22,790 nucleotides of DNA from the NCBI GenBank assembly GCA_001600495.1, contig BCKE01000020.1, positions 500,418 to 523,207 on the forward strand, in the 5' to 3' direction. Position 1 is the stretch's first letter. Each line of letters opens with the position of its first letter. The notes beneath the pieces were generated by a model. The model was not told the origin of the DNA. It did not search any database and was given only the letters and a program-made list of their open reading frames with translations. This document shows positions 5,548 through 10,359 of the stretch, piece after piece. Both the position numbers and the translations under genes were made by a program. This stretch comes from Pilasporangium apinafurcum. Taxonomy: Eukaryota; Oomycota; Peronosporomycetes; Pythiales; Pythiaceae.

Positions 5548-6190
5548 CTGCGGAACACAGCTCGACAATGTGTCCAAGGTCTGTTCTATAGCTAGTTAGG
5601 TCGAAGAATTTTCTCATCGTCAGCTGTGTGTGGTATCCTCCATCTCAGCACTCGATGAAGAGAACGTGTACAATAGTATGTATTTTACCCAATACTGAGT
5701 GAGTGACGTTACTACGGTAACTCATGATCATTCACAGTGTTTGGAGGTAATTATGGCAGAAATGAAAAGACAATTTGAAGCTGAACAAAAGGTCAGATGT
5801 GTTGGAACGTTGCGATTTATATCATTCCTACGGATCTGAATTTGGTCCACGTAGTACTGTAGAACTAACGAGTCAACTCTACATAATCGTGAGAGGTAGC
5901 GATGGCGGCAATTTACATTCGATGTATTCATGAGTCACGCTTTCATACACATGACAATCCAAATGCGCCAACTGCATAACATTGCGATCCAGCAGATTCA
6001 GTATATTCCTCTGACATCATCTGCATTTGCTCATTTTACTTATCTTATTTTCGCAAGCTGTATGTCTGTGCGGAAAACGTATGAGATTCACTATCCATTT
6101 TATCCGTCCGACCAAACCTGTCATACTGACTAGAAAACCTGACAAACGAATTACCTCGAAATCTTATTTTCAGTATAACCAACTGCAAGT
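5548..6190. other. Downstream region of the phosphodiesterase and decayed sequence before the Fanzor piece
   Basis: No intact gene is visible. A short frame from the ATG at 5754 (28 codons) stops quickly. Other frames carry unconvincing fragments. Near 6160-6172, TCTTATTTTCAG looks like an intron acceptor, with CTGAC branch-like sites 34-50 nt before it, which could mark an upstream exon boundary of the Fanzor gene. In the reading frame offset from the Fanzor piece, a Tyr-Gly-Asp just before 6215 is reminiscent of the segment preceding the Fanzor zinc ribbon. I could not find the N-terminal half or the first RuvC motif. Confidence 0.4.
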
Positions 6191-6562
6191 GTGTCTTTGC
6201 AATCAGTATGGGGATTTTTTCTACTGGTATATCATTCAACAATTCGCCACCATGGTGTCAAAGCGCTGAAGAAAGAACTGGTAAAACGCACTACCGTTCG
6301 TTCCGTCGACGACTTTCGTACAAGCAAGGGATGTTTCCACTGTCACGGTGAACTTTCGAAGGTAGTCTTCCCGAAAATGGTCAACGGCGTTCCCGATGGC
6401 ACAATTGAATCTCGATCTGTTTTGCACTATGAATCCAGTGAATGCAAGACGTTTTGGGATCGCGACGTGAACGCTTCGCTGAATATTATGCGCGTGACGA
6501 CAGAACTTTTCAACAATCGAGCAAGACCAGAGTACTTGCAACGAGAACCAAGTGAGTCGTAG
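6191..6562 (+). pseudogene. C-terminal remnant of a Fanzor (TnpB-related RNA-guided nuclease)
   Basis: The 123-residue open frame matches the end of a Fanzor/TnpB protein. It has the lead-in VRSVDDFRTSK (residues 36-46), the first zinc-ribbon pair C48-x2-C51, the second pair region ending at Cys85, then FWDRDVNAS (88-96), the RuvC-III motif. A short Arg/Pro tail follows (RARPEYLQRE). The family is a eukaryotic relative of IS607/IS200 TnpB that cuts DNA guided by an RNA transcribed over its own 3' end. The rest of the protein (typically several hundred residues with RuvC-I and -II) is absent. The expected first Cys of the second zinc pair is Tyr80 (TAT at 6428), consistent with one G-to-A change from TGT. 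Residues before about 18 look out of frame. It is most likely a dead, 5'-truncated copy. Family confidence is high, pseudogene status is inference. Confidence 0.8.
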
Positions 6563-6629
6563 AAGCGCAAAAAAAGCGTGAGCTTGGGGTCTTTGGACTT
6601 GAACCTGCTCACACGGTACAGCCCGTATT

Positions 6630-6683
6630 CTAGGTGTAGTCAGTTGGTAGGCGCAACTCGCGAAGCGAGTTGGAGTAACCTAG
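6630..6683 (+). ncRNA. Candidate Fanzor guide-RNA scaffold (nested stem structure after the stop codon)
   Basis: Starting 68 nt after the Fanzor stop, an outer stem CTAGGT (6630-6635) pairs with ACCTAG (6678-6683). It encloses a perfect 8-bp hairpin, CAACTCGC (6654-6661) with GCGAGTTG (6665-6672), loop GAA. A competing pairing AGTTG (6642-6646) with CAACT (6654-6658) is also possible. TnpB omegaRNAs and Fanzor fRNAs are known to be made from exactly this place, the 3' end of the ORF and its flank, so a guide scaffold is the natural reading. The stretch TAGTCAGTTGGTAGGCGC also resembles a tRNA D arm, so a tRNA-derived SINE head is an alternative, but no B-box follows. No expression evidence is available. 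Confidence 0.4.
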
Positions 6684-6905
6684 TATATAATAAATGGGAT
6701 CTTGCGTTGGTGTTCGATTTGCGTGCTGTTGAAAATTTATTTTAGGCTCCGTAGCTGATGCATCTAGTAATAATGCGCCCACTAACGAAGCGCAGATAAA
6801 ATAAAGCACAGGTTCAGTAAATTCGGTACTTAAAGATTTTTATTTTAGGACTATTGCTTGTCTGTTGTGGCAGTAAGCATTGTAGGAAAAACTGTTGGCC
6901 CGTGT

Positions 6906-8397
6906 ATGCAAATGGTGAAAACAATAGTAGATGCATCACCTTTAATGTTGATGACAGCAGCGGCAGCGGTAGACGCAGGTTCAAAGACCGAGCAGACACG
7001 CATATGGAGACGCGGATCCAATATTCCTGTAGCAGTGTCGCGGCGCGCCGTAAAACTCGCAGAGCTCATCACGGAACGACCGAAATGGGCGACAATCACT
7101 TCGACATTGCGAAGCGAATTCCCAGATATGGGGCACTTGACCCCAGCAGCCGTGCAGAGCCACGTGGTTTACGTGCTGCGACGACAAAAAGAAGATTCCG
7201 AGAAACCGCTACGAAAGAGAGCATCAGAGGGAGAGACTGATGATGACGAGGATAGCAATAGAACGACGAAAGCTCCAAGATCCCATAGTGAACCGTATGA
7301 TGTGCCTGCTTCTTTGGAGAGTCACAGTAAACATGGCGACGGTGCTTCTTCGTGTAGCTGCGGATCTATAGCATGCCAACAGCTTGGTACACTAGTGGAA
7401 CGAATGGATCAAGTGGCTAAAGACGTGCTTGTGATTCATCAACAACTCTCAAGCAGTCGGTATAGTCATAATGCAGACCCAAAAACACAGTGGAGGTGTG
7501 TAACTTGACAACCTTTCATGAGAAGATATGAATTTGGCTGATAAGATGTCTGGGTTGTGGCTTGATAGTGAGCTGAATGGAGAGGCAAAAACTCCCGTTT
7601 CACGGCGTACATACTCGAATGGGCTCTCTCATCTCTCGATTAACGATGAAACAGATAAAAAGCAACCTCAAGCGCAACATACAGAAGCAGCTGCTAATGA
7701 AAGCGAGTTACAGCCAGTAGGCACAAAAAAGACCTTTCCGGATGTTTACTTTTCACAGTCATCATGGTCCACTGAGGACCCCGTGCGAAAACGCATGACC
7801 GACAAATACAATGAATTCAATGCGAGTATCATTCAAAACGAGAAAATGGTCGAAGAATCACTGCATCAAGTGCAAATGAGGACCCACGAGGACGTAGAGG
7901 TCACACAGCAGTTGCACGAGTCCATTGACAACCTGCAAATCGAGATCAAGCGGGCAATGCAGAGTCGCGACAGGGCCCTGGCGACGCTGATCGCCTATCT
8001 ATGGAGGAACAGGTGGGACGATTTAAAGGCACAAGCACAGGAATTAGCTACGCGCGATATCGCTACTATTCAACAGGAGAGCCACAAAAAGTGTGCGACG
8101 ATTGCGGAGAAACTGATGGAGACAAAACGAGATCTACTCATGTGGACCGAGAAATTGGAGGTGTTGCTTCTATCTCCACTCCAGCAAGCATATATTTTTG
8201 ATGATGATGATGATTTGGATGAAGAGAAGACCCGTGAAAACGAAGCAAGACAACTAGTCACCAGTATTTTTGCCGCGAAAACCACTCTTGTTCAGCTCGA
8301 GCGCGAACGAATAGAGGAGTGCATGACTCTTTTTCAAGCCTCGTATCCGATTCGGTTGTTCACAGCTACTCTCATGGAACAGGAGAATTCGATGTAG
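6906..8397 (+). CDS. Unknown protein with Myb/SANT-like helical block and C-terminal coiled coil (paralog 1)
   Basis: I do not recognise a named family. Exons are inferred as 6906-7495 and 7569-8397 (intron 73 nt, GTGTGT...TTGATAG), giving 472 aa. The join is supported by the downstream paralog: TPVSRRTYS after the junction aligns with TPVNRNTTS there. The ATG at 6906 gives an N-terminus equal in length to the paralog; 6912 is also possible. Residues about 34-95 hold a helical block with W-R...P-AVSRRAVKLAELITERPKW and a QSHVVYVLRR end, reminiscent of Myb/SANT-type DNA-binding folds. Residues 150-181 form a Cys-containing conserved helix (CQQLGTLVERMDQV). Residues about 267-470 are rich in E/K/Q/L heptads and probably form a coiled coil, interrupted by a Asp/Glu run near 395-405. 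Acceptor-like TTTATTTTAGG sequences at about 6737-6747 and 6839-6849 might mark 5'UTR introns. A nuclear role is a guess from the N-terminal fold. Confidence 0.72.
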
Positions 8398-8750
8398 AGA
8401 CCAACAATGAGTGCTTAATTTGCCTGAGGTTTTGCTTATGTATTTGACATTCTCGTGTATAACATTTCAACATAAATGAGTGGTTAGAAACGAAATAGTG
8501 ATGAGCAATGCTTTGAAAATACATGAATTCTCGGCAAATCTTTCATGCTTGATCCATCAAGGGTGCAAAGTACTTGCATTGTTTATAGATGGTTGACTGG
8601 TGAAATTTCCCTTAAAATTTTTACGTCAGATTGAATTTAGGAGTTTAACTAAATTGGGTAAAATAAAATTTTAAAATTGGGTGTGGTCTGGTTTTTTGGC
8701 GGTAATTTGGTCAAAGTGAGGAGAACCAGAGAAACAGTAACAAAAGAATC
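8398..8750. promoter_or_regulatory. Intergenic spacer and likely promoter of paralog 2, with CCAAT-type elements
   Basis: This AT-rich 353-bp spacer lies between the tandem paralogs and has no gene. Two ATTGG elements (inverse CCAAT) occur at 8653-8657 and 8676-8680, about 98 and 75 bp before the ATG of the second paralog. The first continues as GTAAAATAAA, matching the extended motif seen before other genes here. No initiator could be fixed. Confidence 0.4.
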
Positions 8751-10359
8751 ATGACAATCAATATACCTGCTCTTCCTACAGGCACACAAAGCGCGTCCAA
8801 CAACGGGAAGAGTGGCGACAATATGGTTTTTAAAAATAAGAACGAACTGGTGTGGAGGCCAGGGGGTCACCTTCCTTTGGCAGTTTCACGCCGCGCTGTG
8901 GAACTGGCCGAGATCATCACAGAGCGACCGAAGTGGGCTCGGCTTGCATCGCAATTGAACAAGGAATTTCCTGAAGTGGAAGTGACCGCCACAGCAATAC
9001 AGAACCATGTAGGCTATATGCAACGAAGGAAGAAAGAGGAGGCGGGTTATGGAAAATCCAATCGAAAGCGGGGTCGGCCGAAACGAGTAAACAACGACAA
9101 TGGCAATGTCGAAGCTCAGAAGTCACTTCCGCCAATCAGAACGAGAAAATCACCAAGGCTACAGCAGGAGCCTGCATCACTTGTAGAGAGTAATAGTGAT
9201 GATACTAGTAAAATCGACATGTCTTACGATTGTGCGGTTCAACCATGCAAACAGCTTGCAGTGCTCACGGATCGTATAAACCAAGTCGGAAGGGAAATTG
9301 TTGCAATCCAGCAAGAACTTGCGGATGGATGCTCTCTACAAACAGTAAAAACGGAATCTGTCTACTTGGATACTATTATGTCAAAGTAAGTGGTTCAGTA
9401 TCTAAAGTGACGGAGGAGGGGGGTTAGTTCAGGGAAGCGAATGTATCTGATTAAATTCTTTTGTCTCTATATTCAGTAGAAGCAATGCGGGCTCAATAGA
9501 AGATGAGCACACTGATGTTGCGATTATTTCCACCCCAGTTAATCGCAATACGACTTCATGCGTTGATTTGACGGAAGATGATTACAATACTGAAGACCAA
9601 GAGTGTCAGGCTGGAGCAGTAAATGACACTAATGAAATGTCTAGGAGCATCTCTTCCGTCAATGATAATGGCGAGGATCCAATCCAAACCCCAGCAATCA
9701 CATCATCCACAGAGGATGGTCAATCTGAGCCAGCCGAGTCATCAAGCTTTGATACTTTATTGAACGATCCAATCAGGATCAAATTGTTGAGGAGATATAA
9801 TCAAGTCAACAACACAATCATCGAAGACGAAAACACAATCCAAGAATCGACTCATTATATACAAGATGAGCTCGATGGAGAAGATGATCTTATACAGGAA
9901 ATAAATCAAGACATTGAAGCGCTCCGAGATGAGGTCAAGCGCAATATCGATATTCGCGATAAAGCTGTCGCAAGAGTGATTGCCTATATGTGGAAGACGA
10001 GACGAAAAGAGTTAGAGGCTCAATCGCACGAACATGACCCTGGAGAAGATGCAGCTGGCGAACGTGAGAGCCACCTAAAGTGTGCGAGTATTGCTGCGCG
10101 CCTTGAGGACATGAAGCAGATGCTGGATAAATGGAAGCGAGAGCTAGACAACCTCATTGATGGTGTAGACAATCGAAAAAAATCGGCTGATGTTTCCAAT
10201 GAACTAGTTGTCAAAATATTCCAGACTCGGGCATCGATCATCCAGCTCGAACGGGACAGAAAGAATGAATTCATCGCGCTATTTCGTTCTTGCCTTCGCA
10301 TCCGCAATTTGGCTACACAAATATTGGATCATGATTTTCCCGAAAGGGTTGAATGTTGA
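8751..10359 (+). CDS. Unknown protein with Myb/SANT-like block, AT-hook and C-terminal coiled coil (paralog 2)
   Basis: This is the tandem paralog of the gene just upstream. Exons are 8751-9385 and 9477-10359 (intron 91 nt, GTAAGT...TATATTCAG), giving 505 aa; the join restores frame exactly and gives ...TIMSN-RSNAG.... Residues 35-97 contain the shared block (LAVSRRAVELAEIITERPKW ... IQNHVGYMQRRKK), similar to paralog 1 over its whole length. Residues 105-112 read RKRGRPKR, a textbook AT-hook core (GRP flanked by basic residues), which paralog 1 lacks. Residues 161-190 match the conserved Cys-containing helix (CKQLAVLTDRINQVG). After an acidic Ser/Thr-rich linker, residues about 310-500 form a predicted coiled coil ending in IIQLERDRKNEFIALF. 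AT-hooks bind the minor groove of AT-rich DNA, so a chromatin or transcription role is likely; the specific function is unknown. Confidence 0.82.

Follow-up and report, generated by a model that had tools for sequence, protein, structure and literature searches.

A probable Fanzor1-family "ghost" transposon, internally deleted and keeping a candidate guide-RNA region, in Pilasporangium apinafurcum

How did the last codons of a Fanzor protein come to stand alone in the genome of the oomycete Pilasporangium apinafurcum? The locus lies in a 22,790-nucleotide stretch of contig BCKE01000020.1 (assembly GCA_001600495.1; C20:500418-523207, hereafter the window), where the original prediction placed a Fanzor relic at 6191–6562. 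We consider it very probable that what lies here is a "ghost" copy from a Fanzor1 transposon family, non-autonomous and internally deleted, in which a candidate guide-RNA region has been kept. The coding remnant and the sequence to its left comprise the following features.

6034–6255, forward strand: 5' part, corresponding to where the full-length parent has its 5' end and leader (main matches 86.8–92.7% identical, to seven parents)
6179–6559, with stop codon TAG at 6560–6562, forward strand: Fanzor/TnpB C-terminal frame of 127 aa with CFHC, HYESSEC and WDRDVNASLNI
6252–6269, forward strand: region of the old Fanzor start codon, out of frame with the zinc ribbon and reading MVSKR then a stop (open reading frame list and sequence)
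6256–6268, forward strand: deletion junction at the 13-bp repeat CGTCAAAGCGCTC, whose first and last bases differ in the window copy
6257–6562, forward strand: dead remnant of the last ~100 Fanzor codons, with zinc ribbon and RuvC-III (WDRDVNA), recognised by the TNB match and by codon-position rates

The frame at 6179–6562 matches the Pfam family Cas12f1-like_TNB above its curated cut-off (E=2.8e-8), and its closest solved structure is the Fanzor1 of Parasitella parasitica (9cf0, E=0.0019). A TnpB/OrfB-type zinc ribbon and the RuvC D...C4...RD pattern are present, with TNB found both in the window piece and in the frames of loci L036 and L037, and the GIDPG and RD motifs occur in long frames of the copies fetched from elsewhere in the genome. 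The zinc ribbon and RuvC-III motif that had been predicted are thus borne out by profile and structure matches to TnpB/Fanzor. The missing N-terminal half of the frame is confirmed too, and so is the replacement of a zinc-ligand cysteine by tyrosine, encoded by TAT in the window copy. That replacement is a minority mutation: 4 of 54 copies (L001, which is the window copy, L004, L009 and L020) have TAT at this position, and the other 50 have TGT for cysteine. The tyrosine codon arises by a G-to-A change, and G-to-A and C-to-T together account for 364 of the 616 differences among 35 short copies. In these 35 copies, G-to-A is commonest after G and C, and C-to-T before C and G, a context that could reflect deamination.

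A search of the genome (36.47 Mb, 136 contigs) with a 77-aa zinc-ribbon query gave at least 150 scored matches, at least 81 of them (at least 79 places) 68–100% identical to the query and at least 69 of them 32–49% identical, so the expectation that translated and profile searches would reveal other Fanzor copies held well; the repeat is far more abundant in the genome than chance would allow, and another family has an open frame of 681 aa. Among the first 29 other copies fetched, 25 align to the window copy over 525–663 bp, 20 of these 25 begin within the first ~20 bp of window position 6032, and four have only the last 427–428 bp in common with it. The predicted feature was accordingly well located but too narrow in extent, the repeated unit spanning ~6032–6684. 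A side-by-side comparison of 54 copies, drawn from the best 57 matches of the zinc-ribbon search, separated 46 short copies from eight that contain the parent's interior (left end seen in seven of the eight, not in L062). Among the short copies, six start late (L016, L018, L020, L021, L025 and L053), a further deletion is present in three (L024, L060 and L067) and two are missing the right end (L028 and L049).

The window copy consists of the first ~230 bp and the last ~428 bp of a ~2.58-kb parent, giving ~650 bp with ~1.93 kb missing. The sequence CGTCAAAGCGCTC lies at both parental breakpoints in L032, L033, L035 and L036; an exact-match search for it missed one or both sites in L031, L034 and L044. 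The resulting junction is common to 45 of the 46 short copies (allowing up to 6 mismatches in 36); only L015, which has lost more sequence at this point, departs from it. The short form is therefore the parent without the ~1.93 kb that two direct repeats of 13 bp enclose, and it occurs at dozens of sites, where its edges are for the most part identical. It has both ends in common with a longer coding element and its coding capacity is gone, which is what distinguishes a ghost. A second short class of ~530 bp was made by another deletion and comprises three of three copies from the group whose zinc-ribbon match starts later (L070–L072). Its join falls right on the site of the former start codon, and the breakpoints have no more than one or two bases in common. 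One short copy also lies close to another family: in the left flank of L006, a short family A copy (the family of the window copy) lies within ~10 bp of an apparent right end of family D (CACGGTTAGGCCGTATTCTGGTAATCGCCA).

The seven ~2.58-kb parents (L031–L036 and L044) are 93.2–95.3% alike, and their frame, for which no introns are needed, opens with an ATG ~220 bp past the left end and closes with a stop codon at ~2.46 kb. The proposal to align full-length copies in search of exons lost upstream of 6191 therefore led elsewhere, as the parent gene is one intron-free frame and what is missing was removed by internal deletion. In place of a relic that decayed where it stands, with frameshifts and lost upstream exons, there remains the part of that reading which assigned the locus to the Fanzor family as a C-terminal remnant without a functional protein. 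A single full-length gene broken up in place by point mutation, frameshift and exon loss would account for the broken frame and for tyrosine at the zinc position, but it has scarcely any probability left, being contradicted by the single junction at a 13-bp repeat that all but one of the 46 short copies share, by edges that are mostly alike among them, and by a parental frame that needs no introns. The window copy was, as far as its sequence tells, born short and amplified, and is not a full copy that decayed in place.

Could the retained zinc-ribbon frame nevertheless encode a functional mini-protein? In its favour is the ~530-bp class, in which an internal in-frame ATG is now first and a 61-codon frame is open in all three copies (L070–L072). 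Those 61 codons hold RuvC-III and the second zinc pair, but the zinc ribbon is without its CFHC half. Mismatch rates in the 650-bp class were calculated from 35 of the 54 copies, leaving out the eight parent-type copies and 11 with incomplete ends or extra deletions. The coding remnant differs from the majority sequence at 2.23% of positions, with rates of.0227,.0216 and.0227 at the three codon positions, and this equality indicates that there is no protein constraint on the remnant; the corresponding values are 3.79% for the 5' part of the element, 2.18% for its 3' leader and 3.87% for the 54 bases at its right end. The protein remnant is thus out of frame with the old start and decaying without codon-position constraint, which rules out an active C-terminal mini-protein in the 650-bp class and makes a functional mini-protein very unlikely overall. 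The last 54 bases change no more slowly than the rest, which speaks against strong selection on the right end after insertion.

It may also be asked whether the short copies descend from few short founders or arose from recurrent, independent deletions between the 13-bp repeats in separate full-length copies. Long direct repeats make repeated deletion plausible, and two left-end variants occur both among short copies and among parents. Against this, short copies outnumber parent-type copies by 46 to 8 among the 54 compared, and independent events would be expected to leave a wider range of deletions. We therefore regard recurrence as distinctly unlikely and the spread of a short form as the better account.

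None of the seven full-length copies of family A is open throughout its Fanzor gene, some letters being masked. The longest open pieces in the parents are 516 aa (L044) and 476 aa (L036), and the longest open frame holding a match among the 81 close matches listed is also 476 aa. At E<=0.01, the L036 piece matches solved structures of Fanzor1 only (Parasitella and Spizellomyces), as does the L037 frame (Spizellomyces and Guillardia), and the N-terminal piece of L044 matches none. The L036 and L044 pieces also show weak matches to OrfB_IS605, below cut-off, and the TNB domain is found in L036. The family with a long open frame is family C (L037 and L075–L087), in which one locus contains the following.

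L037 1473–3515 (contig C59), reverse strand: open 681-aa Fanzor1-like frame, ~40% identical to family A

The gene next to this frame looks by eye like an oomycete Crinkler-type protein, which agrees with the oomycete-like character that the original prediction gave the genome. Four family C copies in which both edges are seen (L076, L080, L082 and L085, with left ends L095–L098) are only ~250–265 bp long and keep the 3' scaffold region and right end without the zinc ribbon. Family D comprises L088–L094. Family B (L038 and L045–L048) is a second Fanzor family, with inverted ends (TTAACCTTTATTCCCCA / TGGGGAATAAAGGTTAA), and has an internal deletion of its own, shared by three of five copies.

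The edges of the element in the window are as follows.

6032–6034, forward strand: left-edge CAT, a putative target motif and candidate TAM (CAT frequency compared with flanks)
6654–6672, forward strand: right-end hairpin CAACTCGC-GAA-GCGAGTTG, 11 nt from the end and 7 nt before CTAG
6680–6684, forward strand: right edge, CTAG then T, beyond which the downstream flank would be the guide (46 of 54 copies have CTAG then T or C)

CAT was found in an 18-nt window at the left edge in 42 of 44 copies, compared with 8–22 of 44 in ten flank windows; the count covers 44 of the 54 copies, the conserved anchor not being found in the other ten. Its spacing to this anchor is 13 in 19 copies, 15 in nine, 11 in five and other values in nine, and this variation suggests that CAT belongs to the target. 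The left edges of family C, seen in four copies of two classes, have no constant CAT, which counts against a general CAT rule. On the right, the base after CTAG is T in.96 of the 46 copies (of 54) with CTAG then T or C. A right-end pattern, allowing at most 3 mismatches, occurs at 76 sites in the genome (reversed control, 0); for 75 of them a close zinc-ribbon match is no more than 500 bases away, and the remaining one (L069) is a copy of the 650-bp type in which letters are masked, so that no other element with such ends is seen. The single-stranded DNA fold of 6630–6700 has z=-3.97. A minority of right ends have TTC in place of GAA in the hairpin loop; this amounts to the 19-bp palindrome being inverted exactly, and resembles terminal-hairpin flip-flop. 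Neither terminal inverted repeats nor target duplications were seen by eye at the edges of the 54 family A copies. When the genome was searched for the empty site of the window insertion, only its own two flanks matched, and no match among the fetched loci spanned the joint of the joined flanks; the cut could thus be CA|T or CAT|. Elsewhere in the window, 196–345 holds two identical AT-rich tandem units of 75 bp, and 6849–8397 and 8706–10359 are two adjacent two-ORF units that look like tandem duplicates (AVSRRAVKLAELITERPKW / AVSRRAVELAEIITERPKW), in which Pfam detected no family above cut-off.

A hairpin followed by CTAG is also what the terminus of a Helitron might look like, and the strongest alternative is that the element is a non-autonomous rolling-circle element of Helitron type carrying Fanzor debris, for which no guide-RNA reading would be needed; it is compatible with the ghost reading, and the probabilities of the two overlap. 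Helitron1 elements insert between A and T without duplication. The edges seen here fit A/T insertion with no visible target duplication, and the 8-bp hairpin lies 11 nt from the CTAG end, in keeping with the Helitron1 pattern of CTRR after a 3' hairpin. Helitron2 elements that contain Fanzor1 and have undergone internal deletion are already described (Bao and Jurka 2013, PMC3627910). The 5' TC expected of Helitrons is nevertheless inconstant (after CA, TC in.61 and TT in.34 of 44 left ends; these were chosen by having CAT, which makes their first three columns circular and the anchor-based CAT count the fairer test), PIF1 helicase has one match in the genome, no other elements with these right ends are seen among the 76, and the scaffold stem described below recurs in families with different right ends. 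A Helitron_like_N profile search of the genome gave 0 matches, with the control silent too. On this evidence we hold Helitron-type movement to be possible, if somewhat doubtful. Two other movers were rejected: an IS200/IS605 mover, as Y1_Tnp has 0 matches in the genome (control positive in 5 of 14 genomes), and an IS607-type (Fanzor2) mover, as the one long frame of the parent is Fanzor and the element holds no serine recombinase. A serine recombinase search of the genome returned three weak resolvase matches, two with internal stops. Two of the three belong to L073 123–1637 (reverse strand) and L074 1280–3137 (forward strand), which look like remnants of IS607-type Fanzor2-like elements (the Fanzor2 label being given by eye): the resolvase match has two internal stops in L073 and none in L074, and its neighbour in each locus is a different TnpB-like frame that includes a zinc ribbon and DRDVNA, of which 504 aa are open in L073.

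Between the stop codon and the right end lies a candidate guide-RNA scaffold.

6576–6683, forward strand: candidate omegaRNA scaffold, with stem I common to three Fanzor families
6578–6583/6607–6612 (stem I), 6613–6616/6623–6626 (stem II) and 6630–6635/6678–6683 (terminal), forward strand: pairings of the scaffold

The stem region reads GTGAGC...GCTCAC-ACGG...CCGT in family A, GTGCGT...GCGCAC-ACGG in family C and GTGGAC...GTCCAC-ACGG in family D. Stem I is fully paired, at six of six positions, in nine of ten sequences from family A, 10 of 13 from family C and three of six from family D (L094 has three pairs and L090 four); 6-bp stems ending at the anchor, which was picked after looking, arise in plain shuffles at frequencies of.037,.044 and.038 per family. 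A covariation alignment of 15 sequences from families A and D, cut to begin at the stem and leaving out 13 family C rows and L034, has 89.4% of cells paired, compared with 21–52% when slid by 1–3 columns. Two stem I pairs differ on both sides (AU/GC and GC/AU), and the covariation score of.238 compares with.180 in shuffles, 2 of 500 of which score as high; the two pairs changed on both sides and the 11 pair types in this alignment do not exceed what shuffling yields (479 and 467 of 500 shuffles, respectively, have numbers at least as large). Within family A no covariation is visible, the 52-copy alignment (51 copies minus L024, L060 and L067, plus L069–L072) being too uniform. The predicted RNA fold of 6560–6683 alone is not significant (z=-0.94), and folds are similarly weak in L037 (-0.43), L076 (-0.38), L091 (-0.21) and L092 (-1.30) and better in L089 (-3.72), L090 (-2.04) and L094 (-1.99, with only 3/6 pairs in stem I). 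A search of Rfam gave a chance-level match only (E=0.89). The 3' region might be kept for transposition alone.

Elements that have lost their genes and kept their ends are familiar, and ghost and internally deleted Fanzor elements are already known in other organisms. MITE-type miniature transposons are internal-deletion derivatives amplified in trans, from which the element described here differs in having no terminal inverted repeats. The location of the scaffold fits the omegaRNA position of Spu-1 of Spizellomyces punctatus, for which the excerpts available of Saito et al. 2023 (PMC10432273) report an 88–90-nt RNA downstream of the gene that extends 14–15 nt into the flank, a TAM of CATA for SpuFz1, and 134 ghost Spu-1 loci that keep a similar 75-nt omegaRNA region with CA upstream. 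The present element resembles these ghosts in that gene-less short forms outnumber full Fanzor1 copies, that the 3' omegaRNA region (here a candidate) is kept and that CA lies just upstream of the left end (PMC10432273, same excerpts). It differs in that its short form still carries ~100 dead codons, and in showing neither the ~30-nt inverted repeats nor the putative TA duplications given for Spu-1 in the excerpted text of PMC3627910. In that same text (Bao and Jurka 2013), the Chlamydomonas elements CRe-1/2/3, which are Helitron2 elements with Fanzor1, are read as non-autonomous Helitrons and, like the element here, have intact 3' ends, internal deletions and complete ends without duplications; unlike it, they share their ends with verified Helitrons and insert after TTTT (PMC3627910). 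The present element has CAT as its motif, and the searches for Helitron machinery gave no more than the single PIF1 match. Fanzor1 is already listed for the oomycetes Albugo laibachii, Pythium and Phytophthora (PMC3627910, Table 1), and for the Albugo families the excerpts of that paper describe no short derivatives, in contrast to their abundance here. Among the titles and abstract openings listed by searches of an open-access library, none concerns short Fanzor derivatives in oomycetes.

Under the ghost reading, internal deletion at the 13-bp repeats of a parent would have produced the short form, which, since both ends are retained, may then have been copied in trans. The guide-RNA scaffold would also have been retained, so that each copy could, while Fanzor protein was available, have supplied a guide identical to the flank downstream of it, which would have been aimed at the empty site with CAT in front. 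Since no protein gene examined in family A is intact, the copies have probably lost all activity by now, unless the protein of another family accepts their RNA. A further step would be to see the short copies as guide-RNA transposons made up of ends and scaffold, with the near-constant CAT, for all its shifting spacing, resulting from selection by the Fanzor TAM and not from a transposase site, spread or retention driven in trans by an RNA-guided nuclease, and guide-only parasites arising independently in several families (the 650- and 530-bp classes of family A and the ~250–265-bp class of family C); we think this rather unlikely.

These observations bear on why transposons carry Fanzor. Several Fanzor families coexist in one genome. 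In three of them (A, B and C) there are shortened derivatives whose 3' end is preserved, one family has a protein frame that is open, and a candidate TAM (CAT) can be read from dozens of insertion edges. The genome thus offers a natural test of whether a guide RNA is worth keeping without its protein, and of whether the protein of one family may serve the RNAs of another.
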